DNA of 64,000 nt from assembly GCF_000021745.1 (NCBI RefSeq), contig NC_011666.1, forward strand, positions 1,054,001-1,118,000, given 5' to 3'. The notes under the pieces were generated by a model, which worked only from the letters and a program-made list of their open reading frames with translations, had not been told where the DNA came from and did not search any database. Shown one piece after another: positions 21,264 to 35,507 of the stretch (position 1 is its first letter; each line of letters starts with the position of its first letter). The DNA is from Methylocella silvestris BL2. Its GTDB lineage: Bacteria; Pseudomonadota; Alphaproteobacteria; Rhizobiales; Beijerinckiaceae. The translations under genes were made by a program, and so were the position numbers.

Positions 21264-21701
21264 TCAAGCCTCGAACACATCCGGCGGCTGCAGCAAAGCG
21301 TCGGGGTCCTCAAGCGCCTCGATAATGACCTGCGCCTGCGCCCATGGATATTCGTCGGTGATGGAAAGATGGACGGCGGGGCGGCAGCCGAGCGGCGTCA
21401 GATTTTTGAGGCGGTTCAGCGCCCCCCCGGTCAGGCTGAAGGTCGGTTTTCCCGAAGGCAGATTGACGACGCCCATTTCGCGCCAGGCGACGCCGAAGCG
21501 CAGCCCCGTCCCCAGCGCCTTCGAGCAAGCCTCCTTGGCCGCGAAACGCTTGGCGTAGGAGGCTGCGCGCCCTGCCCGTCCGTCGGATTTCGCCCGCTCG
21601 ATCTCGGTGAAGCAGCGCTGCGTGAAGCGCTCGCCGAATCGCGCGAGCGAATCTTCGATGCGGCGGATGTCGCAGATATCGACGCCGAAGCCGATGATCA
21701 C
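21264..21701 (-). CDS. acpS: Holo-[acyl-carrier-protein] synthase AcpS
   Basis: Transfers 4'-phosphopantetheine from CoA to ACP. 145 residues beginning at a GTG (21701) that overlaps the pdxJ stop as GTGA. Motifs: [13 protein letters not shown] (metal-binding Asp) at ~4-16 and [15 protein letters not shown] (~55), the two hallmark AcpS boxes. The C-terminus is ~15 residues longer than E. coli AcpS. It is the only phosphopantetheinyl transferase in the window, but whether it also serves the peptide synthetase at 30-34 kb is unknown. Confidence 0.93.
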
Positions 21702-30091: not shown

Positions 30092-33000
30092 TTATGCCGC
30101 TTCCTTCTCTACGATGACGTCGGCCGCGCCTTTTGGCTCGGCCGGCGCGCCGACCCATTCGGAATGGGGCGGAATCTGCTCGCCCTTCATCACCAGCGTC
30201 AGCGGTCCGAGCCGCGCATAATCGCCGACGAGAGTATCATAGAGAACCGTCGAGCCGGCCCCGATGGTGACGCCGTCGGCGATGGCGACGCGGCCGACCT
30301 TCATCACGCGATCCTCGTAAAGATGCGTCTGCAGCGCGGAGATCGCATTCAGCGCGGCAAAATCGCCGACCTTGACACAGTCGAATTCGGTGATGTCGGT
30401 CATGTCCATATAAACGCCCTTGCCGAATTTCGCCCCGAACAGGCGCATCATCCAAGGCAGGAACGGCGTGCCGCGCAAATGATCGAGCAGCACCTTGCCG
30501 GCCATGCCCCAATAGATCACGGCCACGGCCTCGGTGCGCATCGCCCACCAGGACCACATCGGCTTCACCATAGGCTCATAGCGCCCCATGGTCAGCCATT
30601 TCAGCACGATCACGACGATGGTCAGCATCAGGCAGATGGCGACCGACGAGAATGTGAACTGCACCGCGACCGCGCCATAATCGCCGTCCAGCACGCTCGC
30701 GCTGAACCATTCGACCGCCCAGGTGCCGAGCGTGATGAACAGCATCGTCGGCATCGAGATCATCACCGCCTCGAAGCAGGCGCGGGCGAATTTCTTCCAC
30801 TTGGGCGCTTCATAGGTCCAGTTGGCGCCGCCGGCGTCGAATTTCTGCCGCACCGGCAATTTGATCGGCGGCGATCCGAACCAGGTGTCGCCCTCATTCA
30901 TGAGGTGGTTCGCCGGCGGCTTCGACTTGATGCCGATCAGCGCATTGGCCGGAATGTCGGCGCCGGTCGGAATCACGGCGCTATTGCCCACAAAGACCCG
31001 CGGCCCTGTCTTGACGCGCCGCAGCACCATCCAGCCGTTGCGCACTTCCTCGTCGCCGAACACCACTTCATCGGCGATGAAGTTCTTTTCGCCGATCTCG
31101 ACGAGGTCATAGCGGCCGGACAGATTGGTCGAGATTTCGGCGTCCTTGCCGATCTTCGCGCCCATCAGCCGATACCAGCCGCGCATATAGACGGTGGCGT
31201 AAAGCGAGGACAGCGTTTCGAGGGTGATCTCGGTCGCGAGCGTCACCGCCCATTTGCGCAGATAAAACCAGGAATGGACCGAATAGGTCCCCTCGCGCAC
31301 GCGCGGCAGGATGATCCAGCGGCACGCGGCGATGAAGCCCACCGTCACCAGAACCATGACGAAGGCGGTCGGCCACGCCATGATCGGGATCATCATCATA
31401 TAATGGAAGCGGTCGATGTCGCCGATGCCGATAATGTCGTCGATCCGGTCGAACACCCAGAAGGCGGGGAAGATGGGCAACAGGCCGAGCGGCGGAATGG
31501 CCAGCAGCAGCGCGAGATAGACGCCGCCCATTGCGAAACGGCGCGGGATCGAGCCGATCGAGGCGGCGCCGAGCTCGGAGGGGTCGATCTTGCCGGTCTG
31601 GCGCACAGGCGAGCCGTCCCAGCTCTCATAATCGCCAATGCGCCCGCCGGCGCCGATCGCGCTCAGATCGCCGATCTCGGCGCCGCGTCCGATCACGACA
31701 TCTTCCTCGATGACGCAGGACGAGCCGATATAGGCGTCTGCGCCGATCTCGATCGAACCAATGATGAGTTCGCCGCCCTCGACCCGCGCATTGGCGAGAT
31801 TGGCGATCGAGCCGACGCTCGCGCCGTCGCCGAAGGAGATGAGGTCGATCGCGCCGGCGTCGACCTCGCCGATGATGGCGTCCTTGCCGACCTTCGCCCC
31901 GAGCGCGCGCAGATAAAAGCGCATAAAGGGAGAGCCGGAAAACCATTTGATGTGGACGAGCCCGATGAACCGCCGCGCCAGCCACCAGCGGAAATAATAG
32001 ACGCCCCACAACGGGTAGCGGCCCGGCTTGGTGCGCCCGATGATCAGCCATTTCGCCGCGATGGTGATGGCGACGGTGACGATGTTGATGCACATATAGA
32101 CGGCGATCAGCGAGATGATCTCCTCGCCGATCGCCGCTTCAGCGCCGGTCAGCAGCATGTAGCTGACGAAGACGCCAAGCCATTGCGCCGTGACGAGCGC
32201 AAGGATGATTGGCAAAGCGACGGCCTGGGCCAGGCCGCAGAGAAAGCGCCGCAGCAGCGGCGGCGGGTCGAAGCCAAGATCGGCAGGCCCGGCGAGATGC
32301 GCCCATTTACGATCGATGAGTTCGCCAATGCCGCGCAGCGTCCGCGCCGAATAGACGTCCTGAAGCGTGACGCGGGAGAGCGCCTGCGTCTTGCGGACAA
32401 TCGAGATGAAGCGCGCGGCGAGAAGCGAATGGCCGCCAAGGTCCGTGAAGAAATCGGCGTCGAAGGGAATCGCCTGCGGCGGCAGCACCTCCTTCGCGGC
32501 GGCGAGCAGGCTGGCTTCCGTCGATGTGCGTGGATCTTCCTGCGCCTCGCTGGAATCGACCTCGGCGAGCCGGACGAGCTTCAGGCTCTTGCGGTCGACC
32601 TTGCCGGACGACAGTTTCGGCAGGGTGGCGATCGATTCGAAACGGCTCGGCACCATATAGGGCGGCAGGCTCGCCCGCAGCGCGCCGCGCAATACGCGAG
32701 TCTCGAGCGCGCCGGCCTCGACCGCGCCGGGCGCCGGCACGAGGAAGGCGACAAGCTGATCGACGCCCGCATCATTGCGCAGAACCACGGCGGCGTGGGC
32801 GACGCCTTCAAGATCGCCGAGCTTCGCCTCGATCTCGCCGAGCTCGACCCGGAAGCCGCGCACCTTGACCTGATCGTCGATGCGGCCGCGAAACAGGATT
32901 TCGCCGGCCTCGTTGATCGCGACGGCGTCTCCGGAGCGATAAAGCACCGGATCGCCGGTCGCCGCATCGAAGTCCGCGACGGGAAACGGATTGGGAATAA

Positions 33001-34168
33001 ATTTCTCGGCCGTCAGCTCCGGACGCTTCAAATAGCCGCGCGCGACGCCGGGGCCGCCGATTAGAAGCTCCCCCTCGCTGCCCGGCGCTACGAGATGAAG
33101 TTCATCATCGACGACGTAACAGGAATAGTTCGGGATCGGACCGCCGATCGTAACGGCCGCGCCCGGCTGCACCTCGGCGATGGTGGCGACGACGGTCGCC
33201 TCGGTCGGACCGTAGGAGTTGAAGATCTTCCGCCCCGGCTTGCACCAGCGGCCCGCGATTGCGGGCGGACAGGCCTCGCCGCCCAGAATGATCACCCGCA
33301 GCGTCACGACGTCGCGCGGCAGCAACGCGAGCAGCGTCGGCACCGTGTCGAGGACGGTGACGCCATTCGCCTCCATGATTTCGGGCAGCTTGTCGGCCTC
33401 GCCCATGACCTCCGGCGTCGCAACGAACAGCCGCGCGCCAACAAGATAAGGGAGCCAGATCTCTTCCATCGACAGATCGAAGGCGACCGAAGCGCCCTGA
33501 AACATCACATCCGTGGCGTCAAGCCGGTAGATCTCATTCGCCGCGCGCAAATAATGGCAGATATTGGCGCCGGTGATGACGATGCCTTTCGGCGTCCCGG
33601 TCGAACCCGACGTATAGATTAGATAAGCGGGGGAATCGGGCGTTGCGCCGAGCGCGCGCGCATCGATTTTTTCATCTGTCGAATAATCGGCAAGCTCGCG
33701 CGGCGTCAGAATGGCGCATCCGACGCGGCCGGCGAGTTTTGCGGCGAAATCCGCCGTGGTCACAATCAGCTTGGCGGCGGCGTCATCGAGGCAGACAGCG
33801 ATCCGGTCAACGGGCGCATCGCCGTCGAAGGGGAGCCAGGCGGCGCCGATCTTGGCGATGGCGATCTGTCCGATCAAAAGCTCGTGGCCGCGCGGCATCC
33901 ACAGGCCGGCGATGTCTCCCGGACGCAGGCCCGCGCGCAGAAGGCCGCGGGCGATCGCCTCTGCTCTCTCATCGACTTCAGCGTAGGTCAGCGCGCCGTC
34001 GCGCGTCACCATCGCCAGCGCGTCCGGATCGGCGGCGACTGTGGCGGCAAAAATCTCGCACAGGAGCTCGTCGCGCCGCAGGTTCGGCAAGCGCAGGCCG
34101 CGCAATACGCACTGCGCTGTCCCCGTAGCCTCTTGCGCATCGGCAGTCGCCGCGCCGTTCTGCGTCAT
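30092..34168 (-). CDS. Membrane-bound single-module peptide synthetase, Pls-like (A-T-six TM-three soluble domains)
   Basis: 1358 residues from ATG 34168 (AGGA upstream; longer in-frame starts exist). An adenylation domain (~25-530) has YTSGSTGTPKG, NSYGPTEATV, GRIDDQVKVRG and SSGKVDRKSL. A carrier domain follows with DLGGHSLLAARF, phosphopantetheine on Ser581. The rest has six hydrophobic helices in three pairs separated by three related soluble domains, each starting with a LGAKVGKD-like motif and rich in hexapeptide-type beta-helix repeats. This is the layout of epsilon-poly-L-lysine synthetase (Pls) and its relatives. Aligned by eye to GrsA, the pocket reads D-L-E-D-I-G-S-V-V plus Lys; the two acidic residues suggest a basic amino acid. 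No condensation or thioesterase domain is seen. Product unknown. Confidence 0.85.
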   Translation of the reverse strand: MTQNGAATADAQEATGTAQCVLRGLRLPNLRRDELLCEIFAATVAADPDALAMVTRDGALTYAEVDERAEAIARGLLRAGLRPGDIAGLWMPRGHELLIGQIAIAKIGAAWLPFDGDAPVDRIAVCLDDAAAKLIVTTADFAAKLAGRVGCAILTPRELADYSTDEKIDARALGATPDSPAYLIYTSGSTGTPKGIVITGANICHYLRAANEIYRLDATDVMFQGASVAFDLSMEEIWLPYLVGARLFVATPEVMGEADKLPEIMEANGVTVLDTVPTLLALLPRDVVTLRVIILGGEACPPAIAGRWCKPGRKIFNSYGPTEATVVATIAEVQPGAAVTIGGPIPNYSCYVVDDELHLVAPGSEGELLIGGPGVARGYLKRPELTAEKFIPNPFPVADFDAATGDPVLYRSGDAVAINEAGEILFRGRIDDQVKVRGFRVELGEIEAKLGDLEGVAHAAVVLRNDAGVDQLVAFLVPAPGAVEAGALETRVLRGALRASLPPYMVPSRFESIATLPKLSSGKVDRKSLKLVRLAEVDSSEAQEDPRTSTEASLLAAAKEVLPPQAIPFDADFFTDLGGHSLLAARFISIVRKTQALSRVTLQDVYSARTLRGIGELIDRKWAHLAGPADLGFDPPPLLRRFLCGLAQAVALPIILALVTAQWLGVFVSYMLLTGAEAAIGEEIISLIAVYMCINIVTVAITIAAKWLIIGRTKPGRYPLWGVYYFRWWLARRFIGLVHIKWFSGSPFMRFYLRALGAKVGKDAIIGEVDAGAIDLISFGDGASVGSIANLANARVEGGELIIGSIEIGADAYIGSSCVIEEDVVIGRGAEIGDLSAIGAGGRIGDYESWDGSPVRQTGKIDPSELGAASIGSIPRRFAMGGVYLALLLAIPPLGLLPIFPAFWVFDRIDDIIGIGDIDRFHYMMMIPIMAWPTAFVMVLVTVGFIAACRWIILPRVREGTYSVHSWFYLRKWAVTLATEITLETLSSLYATVYMRGWYRLMGAKIGKDAEISTNLSGRYDLVEIGEKNFIADEVVFGDEEVRNGWMVLRRVKTGPRVFVGNSAVIPTGADIPANALIGIKSKPPANHLMNEGDTWFGSPPIKLPVRQKFDAGGANWTYEAPKWKKFARACFEAVMISMPTMLFITLGTWAVEWFSASVLDGDYGAVAVQFTFSSVAICLMLTIVVIVLKWLTMGRYEPMVKPMWSWWAMRTEAVAVIYWGMAGKVLLDHLRGTPFLPWMMRLFGAKFGKGVYMDMTDITEFDCVKVGDFAALNAISALQTHLYEDRVMKVGRVAIADGVTIGAGSTVLYDTLVGDYARLGPLTLVMKGEQIPPHSEWVGAPAEPKGAADVIVEKEAA

Positions 34169-34459: not shown

Positions 34460-35290
34460 TTACTCCTTGCCCAGCGCGCCGATGTCGGGCGCGGCAGGAT
34501 TCTTCATTCCGACAATATGATAGCCGGCGTCGACATGGAGAATTTCGCCCGTCACCCCGCGCGCCATGGACGAGAGCAGGAAGACGGCGCTTTCGCCCAC
34601 TTCCTCGATAGAGACGGAGCGGCGCAGCGGCGCGTTATATTCGTTCCACTTCAAAATATAGCGGAAATCGCCAATCCCCGAGGCTGCAAGCGTCTTGATG
34701 GGACCTGCCGAAATGGCGTTGACGCGGATATTCTTCTCGCCGAGGTCGGCCGCAAGATAGCGCACGCTGGCTTCAAGCGCGGCCTTGGCGACGCCCATCA
34801 CATTATAATGCGGCATCCATTTTTCGGCGCCGTAATAGGTCAGGGTCAACAGCGACCCGCCATCCGGCATCAGCCGTTCGGCCCGCTGCGCGATAGCGGT
34901 GAAGGAATAGCAGGAGACCAGCAGCGTATTGCTGAAATTTTCCGCCGTCGTGTTGACATAGCGCCCGGTCAGCTCGTCCTTATCGGAGAAGGCGACGCAA
35001 TGAACGACAAAGTCGAGCTTGCCCCAGCTGCGCTCGATCTCGCCGAAGACGGCGTCAAGACTTGCGGCGTCGGTCACGTCGCAATGGCCGACGACCACGC
35101 CGCCAAGTTCGGCCGCGAGCGGGCGCACCCTCTTGCCGAGCGACTCGCCCTGAAAGGTGAAAGCGAGTTCCGCCCCGGCGTCGCGCGCCGCCTTGGCGAT
35201 CCCCCAGGCGATCGACCGATTATTGGCGAGGCCAAGAATGAGGCCGCGCTTGCCCGCAAGCGGGCCGGACCGGATCAGATCATCTGTCAT
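34460..35290 (-). CDS. fabI: Enoyl-[acyl-carrier-protein] reductase (NADH) FabI
   Basis: 276 residues, last reduction of fatty-acid elongation. GLANNRSIAWGIAKA binds NAD; the catalytic pair is Tyr162 and Lys169 in HYNVMGVAKAALE, with the FabI-specific TYYGAEKWMP just before. The C-terminal GGTGEILHVDAGYHI-type strand is present (VTGEILHVDAGYHIVGM). Start at 35290 is favoured by GGAAG ~6 nt upstream; ATGs at 35308 and 35323 are alternatives. Rhizobial genomes often carry FabI paralogues, so this may be FabI1 or FabI2. Confidence 0.93.
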   Translation of the reverse strand: MTDDLIRSGPLAGKRGLILGLANNRSIAWGIAKAARDAGAELAFTFQGESLGKRVRPLAAELGGVVVGHCDVTDAASLDAVFGEIERSWGKLDFVVHCVAFSDKDELTGRYVNTTAENFSNTLLVSCYSFTAIAQRAERLMPDGGSLLTLTYYGAEKWMPHYNVMGVAKAALEASVRYLAADLGEKNIRVNAISAGPIKTLAASGIGDFRYILKWNEYNAPLRRSVSIEEVGESAVFLLSSMARGVTGEILHVDAGYHIVGMKNPAAPDIGALGKE

Positions 35291-35507
35291 AGCTTCCGGT
35301 TGCGTCATTCTCGGTCCGGACATGAGGGGGTAAAGGCGGCATCGATGGAACGGCCGCAGCGTCAGCCGCGTTTAAGGACTATCGCGGCGTAAAGCAAGGA
35401 TCGCGAATGGTTAACCCGGGCGAGTCCGGCAGCCCTTAATCAAAATTTGTTTCTTCCGGTATGCACGAGGCGCGGCGCAGCTTATTATATTAGAGCGCGG
35501 CGGGACG

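Follow-up and report, generated by a model that had tools for sequence, protein, structure and literature searches.

Characterised cationic homopolymers of amino acids come mainly from actinomycetes, with one fungal and one Acinetobacter case in addition. Two synthetases are the natural points of comparison: Pls, the epsilon-poly-L-lysine synthetase of Streptomyces albulus (PDB 7WEW), and PosA, the delta-poly-L-ornithine synthetase of Acinetobacter baumannii (PDB 8G95-8G98). In both, an adenylation (A) domain and a peptidyl carrier (PCP) domain precede a polymerase half recognised by the profile TIGR02353, the "Pls/PosA family non-ribosomal peptide synthetase" of NCBIfam; antiSMASH calls this family "NAPAA".

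The pocket of PosA is described in its published analysis (PMC10522769). There, Ser313, at position 9 of the specificity code, is a ligand of the ornithine delta-amine, and the replacement S313A costs 183-fold. Met218, at position 2, disfavours lysine; enzymes for lysine carry Ala at this position. The PosA residue at position 4 makes no contact with ornithine.

A third pocket of interest belongs to ApnA A1 of anabaenopeptin synthetase (PDB 4D4H), a domain of a multimodular NRPS that has no TIGR02353 half. Its variants DVEDIGAIEK and DVEDIGAVEK incorporate arginine alone, while those reading DVEDIGG[IV]EK incorporate arginine plus other residues, lysine included.

Relatives of the gene discussed here have also been seen before. 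Patel and Gulick (2023; PMC10522769) leave "D L E D I G T V T/V/I K", a code they give for Archaea, Rhizobia, and Methylobacterium, without an assignment. A second publication from 2023 finds the code in every complete Bosea genome, Alvarez-Arevalo et al. are among earlier authors whose work bears on this gene group, and an epsilon-polylysine-like cluster is reported from M. extorquens genomes (PMC10353431). The NAPAA loci that antiSMASH marks in Bosea and Methylorubrum extorquens belong to the same gene family, but in different genera; the Bosea code, DLEDLGTVVK, has Leu for Ile and Thr for Ser. Family and code are thus on record, and the gene from Methylocella silvestris BL2, a methane-eating soil bacterium, adds a member.

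Architecture of the Methylocella synthetase

The gene lies in the window, which is the whole stretch of 64,000 nucleotides that was analysed. Its features are collected in Table 1. The start codon is uncertain: ATG occurs at 34168, 34186, and 34189, and the frame stays open upstream to 34258.

Table 1. Features of the synthetase gene and its neighbour, in window coordinates
Feature	Position	Strand	Remarks
Pls/PosA-family homopoly(amino acid) synthetase gene	30092..34168	-	1358 aa; A-PCP-TM/hexapeptide C-terminal half
Adenylation domain	32579..34072	-	residues 33-530; TIGR01733 394.6 bits, PF00501, PF13193
Pocket region	33188..33481	-	nine of the ten code residues, by alignment; the tenth, K523, lies outside
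Peptidyl carrier domain	32315..32506	-	PF00550, residues 555-618; Ser581 in LGGHSL is the phosphopantetheine serine
TIGR02353 polymerase half	30140..32230	-	residues 647-1343 = profile 2-695 of 695
First membrane helix pair	32042..32257	-	residues 638-709; model helices 16-51, 58-87
Second membrane helix pair	31310..31549	-	residues 874-953; model helices 252-291, 298-331
Third membrane helix pair	30590..30802	-	residues 1123-1193; model helices 501-538, 542-571
ALQTHLYEDRVMK motif in third beta-helix	30299..30337	-	candidate catalytic site
fabI	34460..35323	-	upstream neighbour of the synthetase; adjacency inherited, gene outside the system

A preliminary description, made from the letters alone, had read a Pls-type plan here: one A domain, one carrier domain at Ser581, and neither condensation nor thioesterase domains. 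Profile searches bear this out. TIGR02353 matches with 636 bits, against a curated cut-off of 423.1 (NCBIfam scan), and Pfam finds a single adenylation domain, a single carrier domain, and hexapeptide repeats. Condensation and thioesterase families are absent from the 1358 residues in the Pfam and NCBIfam scans. Among solved structures, the A domain matches that of PosA (8g95) with 390 bits and that of Pls (7wew) with 257 bits. The gene is an intact member of the Pls/PosA family, with the domain content of that family. The dN/dS ratio, 0.11-0.24 against five relatives, indicates purifying selection and hence functional constraint.

The preliminary description had also proposed six membrane helices in three pairs followed by three related soluble domains, and had suggested a structural prediction as a check. 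AlphaFold2, applied to residues 623-1348, returned the expected plan with a pLDDT of 90.4 and a pTM of 0.91: a pair of long transmembrane helices followed by a left-handed beta-helix, three times over, in agreement with the model described for PosA. The three repeats are mutually related (repeat-to-repeat BLAST, E 7e-26 to 7e-6). By analogy with the family, the helix pairs presumably sit in the membrane. In the first repeat, the beta-helix is similar to the xenobiotic acetyltransferases CatB and VatA/VatD (VIA Z about 15, rmsd 2.6-3.9 A over ~120 residues, model residues 114-246), which places it in the hexapeptide acyltransferase fold. Neither sequence search nor Foldseek found a solved structure of a polymerase half; thus, these fold matches are matches to single hexapeptide domains.

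Every residue invariant across 53 diverse family members is present in the Methylocella alignment row, including the Q-x-H-x-x-E of the third repeat. Here, Gln1280, His1282, Glu1285, and Lys1290 of the ALQTHLYEDRVMK motif (alignment columns Q658, H660, E663, and K668) are invariant throughout, and the motif is a candidate for the catalytic site.

Taking family, domain content, and pocket from the gene itself, and substrate, linkage, polymer, and export from the characterised relatives, we consider the protein to be probably a cationic homopoly(amino acid) synthetase that uses a basic substrate and dispenses with condensation and thioesterase domains. The A domain would convert a basic amino acid (most likely L-lysine, possibly L-ornithine or L-arginine) into the aminoacyl-AMP. 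The residue would then be loaded onto the phosphopantetheine of Ser581, a cofactor that the genome's Sfp-type transferase would supply. The membrane-embedded, pseudo-three-fold hexapeptide-repeat half would couple the units, probably through the side-chain amine, giving short cationic isopeptide chains, probably for export.

Besides AcpS, the genome encodes an Sfp-type phosphopantetheinyl transferase; it is a 233-aa protein that we take to be Sfp-type from its motif WTAKEAVLKAFG. The AcpS-type match lies in the window at 21405-21689 (-) and is one of only two PF01648 matches in the genome.

The pocket and the choice of substrate

The alignment gives the pocket code D-L-E-D-I-G-S-V-V-K (D231, L232, E235, D274, I294, G296, S318, V326, V327, and K523), just as the preliminary description had read it by eye. 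The mapping is validated by the fact that the same columns yield DMEHNGTVSK, the published PosA code, for PosA-type sequences.

Asp1 and Glu3 of the code are kept, together with Gly6 and a hydroxyl at position 7, as in PosA, which is likewise encoded by a stand-alone gene. E235 is the counterpart of E221 in PosA and E217 in Pls, the Glu that binds the amine of the substrate side chain. At the position of Asp274, Pls has S256, which touches lysine, and ApnA A1 has S243, which touches its substrate; this makes a basic amino acid very likely as the substrate. The full PosA code, D-M-E-H-N-G-T-V-S/T-K, is not matched, however: His gives way to Asp at position 4, and the Ser at position 9 that binds the ornithine amine is Val. 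In Pls, Glu3 and the residue at position 4 are placed at the side-chain amine, and a sequence of Lys type, DAESVGTVVK, has the same Val at position 9; Pls itself differs at positions 2 (Ala) and 4 (Ser).

Glu235, Asp274, the Val at position 9, and the ApnA variants together favour a side chain longer than that of ornithine. Leu232, at position 2, argues the other way; its bulk is roughly that of Met218 in PosA, and the Ala of Lys-type enzymes is absent. Our ranking is a matter of judgement, not of calculation. Lysine comes first, tentatively; ornithine and then arginine follow as less likely candidates, and other amino acids share what is left.

The phylogeny speaks for ornithine. The clade with DLED codes adjoins PosA-type sequences in the A-domain tree and in the C-terminal-half tree alike, and PosA is the closest characterised branch in both. 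PosA-type sequences were confirmed by their best solved match (513 bits against 8G95 in one case). When both halves are joined and the pocket columns masked, a quick tree places the DLED clade inside the DMEH (ornithine) group, and forcing the ornithine-type sequences into a clade that excludes it is rejected (p-AU 0.0007). The tree holds one Lys-type sequence, assigned by code only, with S. albulus Pls itself outside it; within those bounds, the DLED clade groups with PosA-type sequences, and the Lys type is more distant. The joint tree and the AU result thus point to PosA, rather than Pls, as the closest characterised relative. From these sequences, the clade appears to have arisen inside the ornithine-type group.

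It might therefore be that the pocket has drifted while the ancestral substrate was retained, so that the enzyme still makes delta-poly-L-ornithine as PosA does. This is a sub-case of the synthetase reading preferred here, and a doubtful one. Besides the tree, the volume of Leu at position 2 is close to that of Met, the nearest solved A domain of equal architecture is that of PosA, and the bacitracin ornithine domain likewise has an acid at position 4. Yet the ligand of the delta-amine whose loss is so costly in PosA is gone, and positions 4, 5, and 9 are all altered and nearly fixed across the whole clade.

Arginine is the next candidate, and also an unlikely one. Here, the A domain would activate arginine, and the product would be an alpha-linked oligoarginine, or single arginine units passed to an amine acceptor. 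The ApnA A1 variants cited above point this way, as do the acidic side chains found at both position 3 and position 4 and a Pls homologue of Bdellovibrionales that prefers arginine. But position 9 is Glu in those ApnA variants and Val in the clade, and the polymerase half is conserved with those of diamine polymerases. Guanidine is a poor nucleophile, and the usual isopeptide polymer is impossible with arginine.

The "lysine-like" pocket of the preliminary description thus survives in part. E235 and Asp274 back the reading of the pocket as one for a basic amino acid. Lysine itself is plausible, but the tree nests the clade in the PosA group, and the similar codes DVEDIGA[IV]EK are found in ApnA A1 domains that incorporate arginine. 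The pattern D-x-E-[D/S]-I-G is shared with ApnA A1, although position 9 there is Glu or Ala. Diaminobutyrate was considered and rejected as unlikely: the diaminobutyrate aminotransferase TIGR00709 scores above its cut-off in just 1 of 30 carrier genomes, in a search that did not extend to EctB.

The clade code, DLED[IVL]G[ST]VVK, is found in 105 of the 108 sequences in which it can be read (34 loci plus 74 named loci, some genomes being in both sets). The exceptions, DLEDIGGVVK, DLESIGSVVK, and DLESVGSVVK, are natural variants at positions 4 and 7. Two other codes are of separate interest. One relative, from the same class and inside the ornithine-type group, reads DVEANGTGSK, which matches no code in the available part of the PosA paper. 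Another relative reads DYECISLVSK, with Tyr at position 2, and looks like a variant within the Phe-type (Dap/Dab) group.

Distribution and genomic context

According to the preliminary description, products of this kind are seldom associated with these bacteria. The survey contradicts this. Of 149 genomes sampled from the bacterial family, 101 carry the synthetase family, and they span 33 of 43 genera; at the level of the order the count is 50 of 297 sampled genomes, and at that of the phylum 27 of 398. At least 577 relatives exist among named genomes; the best 80 of these include Methylocapsa, Beijerinckia, Methylosinus, Rhodoblastus, Azospirillum, and Magnetospirillum. Among the matches listed, the closest named relative is in Methylocella silvestris TVC, with 98% identity over the C-terminal half. 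The codes already published in 2023 for rhizobia, Methylobacterium, and Bosea, together with the M. extorquens cluster, make the earlier statement out of date. Our literature search found nothing for the code DLEHNTTVSK, and nothing linking a polylysine synthetase with Methylobacterium.

The gene is an old resident of its bacterial family, and one that has been kept widely. It is probably dispensable, since one genome of Methylocella's own genus is without the synthetase family. Methanotrophs and leaf-dwelling methylotrophs both belong to this family; that two thirds of its sampled genomes keep the gene, with a pocket that hardly varies, suggests a widespread and so far unseen cationic polymer, one that would extend to well-studied laboratory bacteria such as Methylorubrum extorquens. 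The substrate of one A domain would assign the whole clade. A bolder view, which we think improbable, is that the DLED clade forms an enzyme group of its own, switched from ornithine to arginine or another substrate, with a product other than the known isopeptide homopolymers (an arginine oligomer or arginyl conjugate, for example). It would then be passed on vertically as a near-core trait in Beijerinckiaceae and their relatives, and its role would be physiological, not antibiotic.

The neighbouring fabI had been thought probably unrelated, and comparison of clade loci upholds this; the adjacency is a remnant of an ancestral gene block. A functional coupling of the two genes in one operon, for example to give an acylated product, was considered because about 21 of 33 clade loci have fabI upstream in the same orientation. 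The distance between the two genes varies from 0.23 to 5.7 kb, however, with gpm between them, upstream of the synthetase gene, in 14 of the 33 loci, and fabI, a housekeeping gene, has another copy elsewhere. Further, aroC follows the synthetase gene in 15 of 33, and a relative that has no synthetase gene retains pdxH-dnaJ-fabI-gpm-aroC-ribAB, an empty site. These counts and the empty site mean that the gene sits in an ancestral housekeeping block, fabI-gpm-[pls]-aroC, from which Methylocella has since lost gpm and aroC. Protein distances of synthetase and FabI are correlated (Mantel r 0.65, 0 of 2000 permutations), which fits vertical descent. The synteny leads us to reject the coupling as very improbable.

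An ORF of 966 aa runs antisense to the gene (30164-33064, +). It was set aside, since high-GC codon usage most likely accounts for it; antisense ORFs lie opposite the gene in 34 of 34 clade loci.

Elsewhere on the genome contig there is a second FabI-like protein, with 58% identity (2382948-2383766), plus two weaker matches, with 47% and 46% (3278443-3279246 and 2968298-2969053), each with one stop codon inside the matched stretch.
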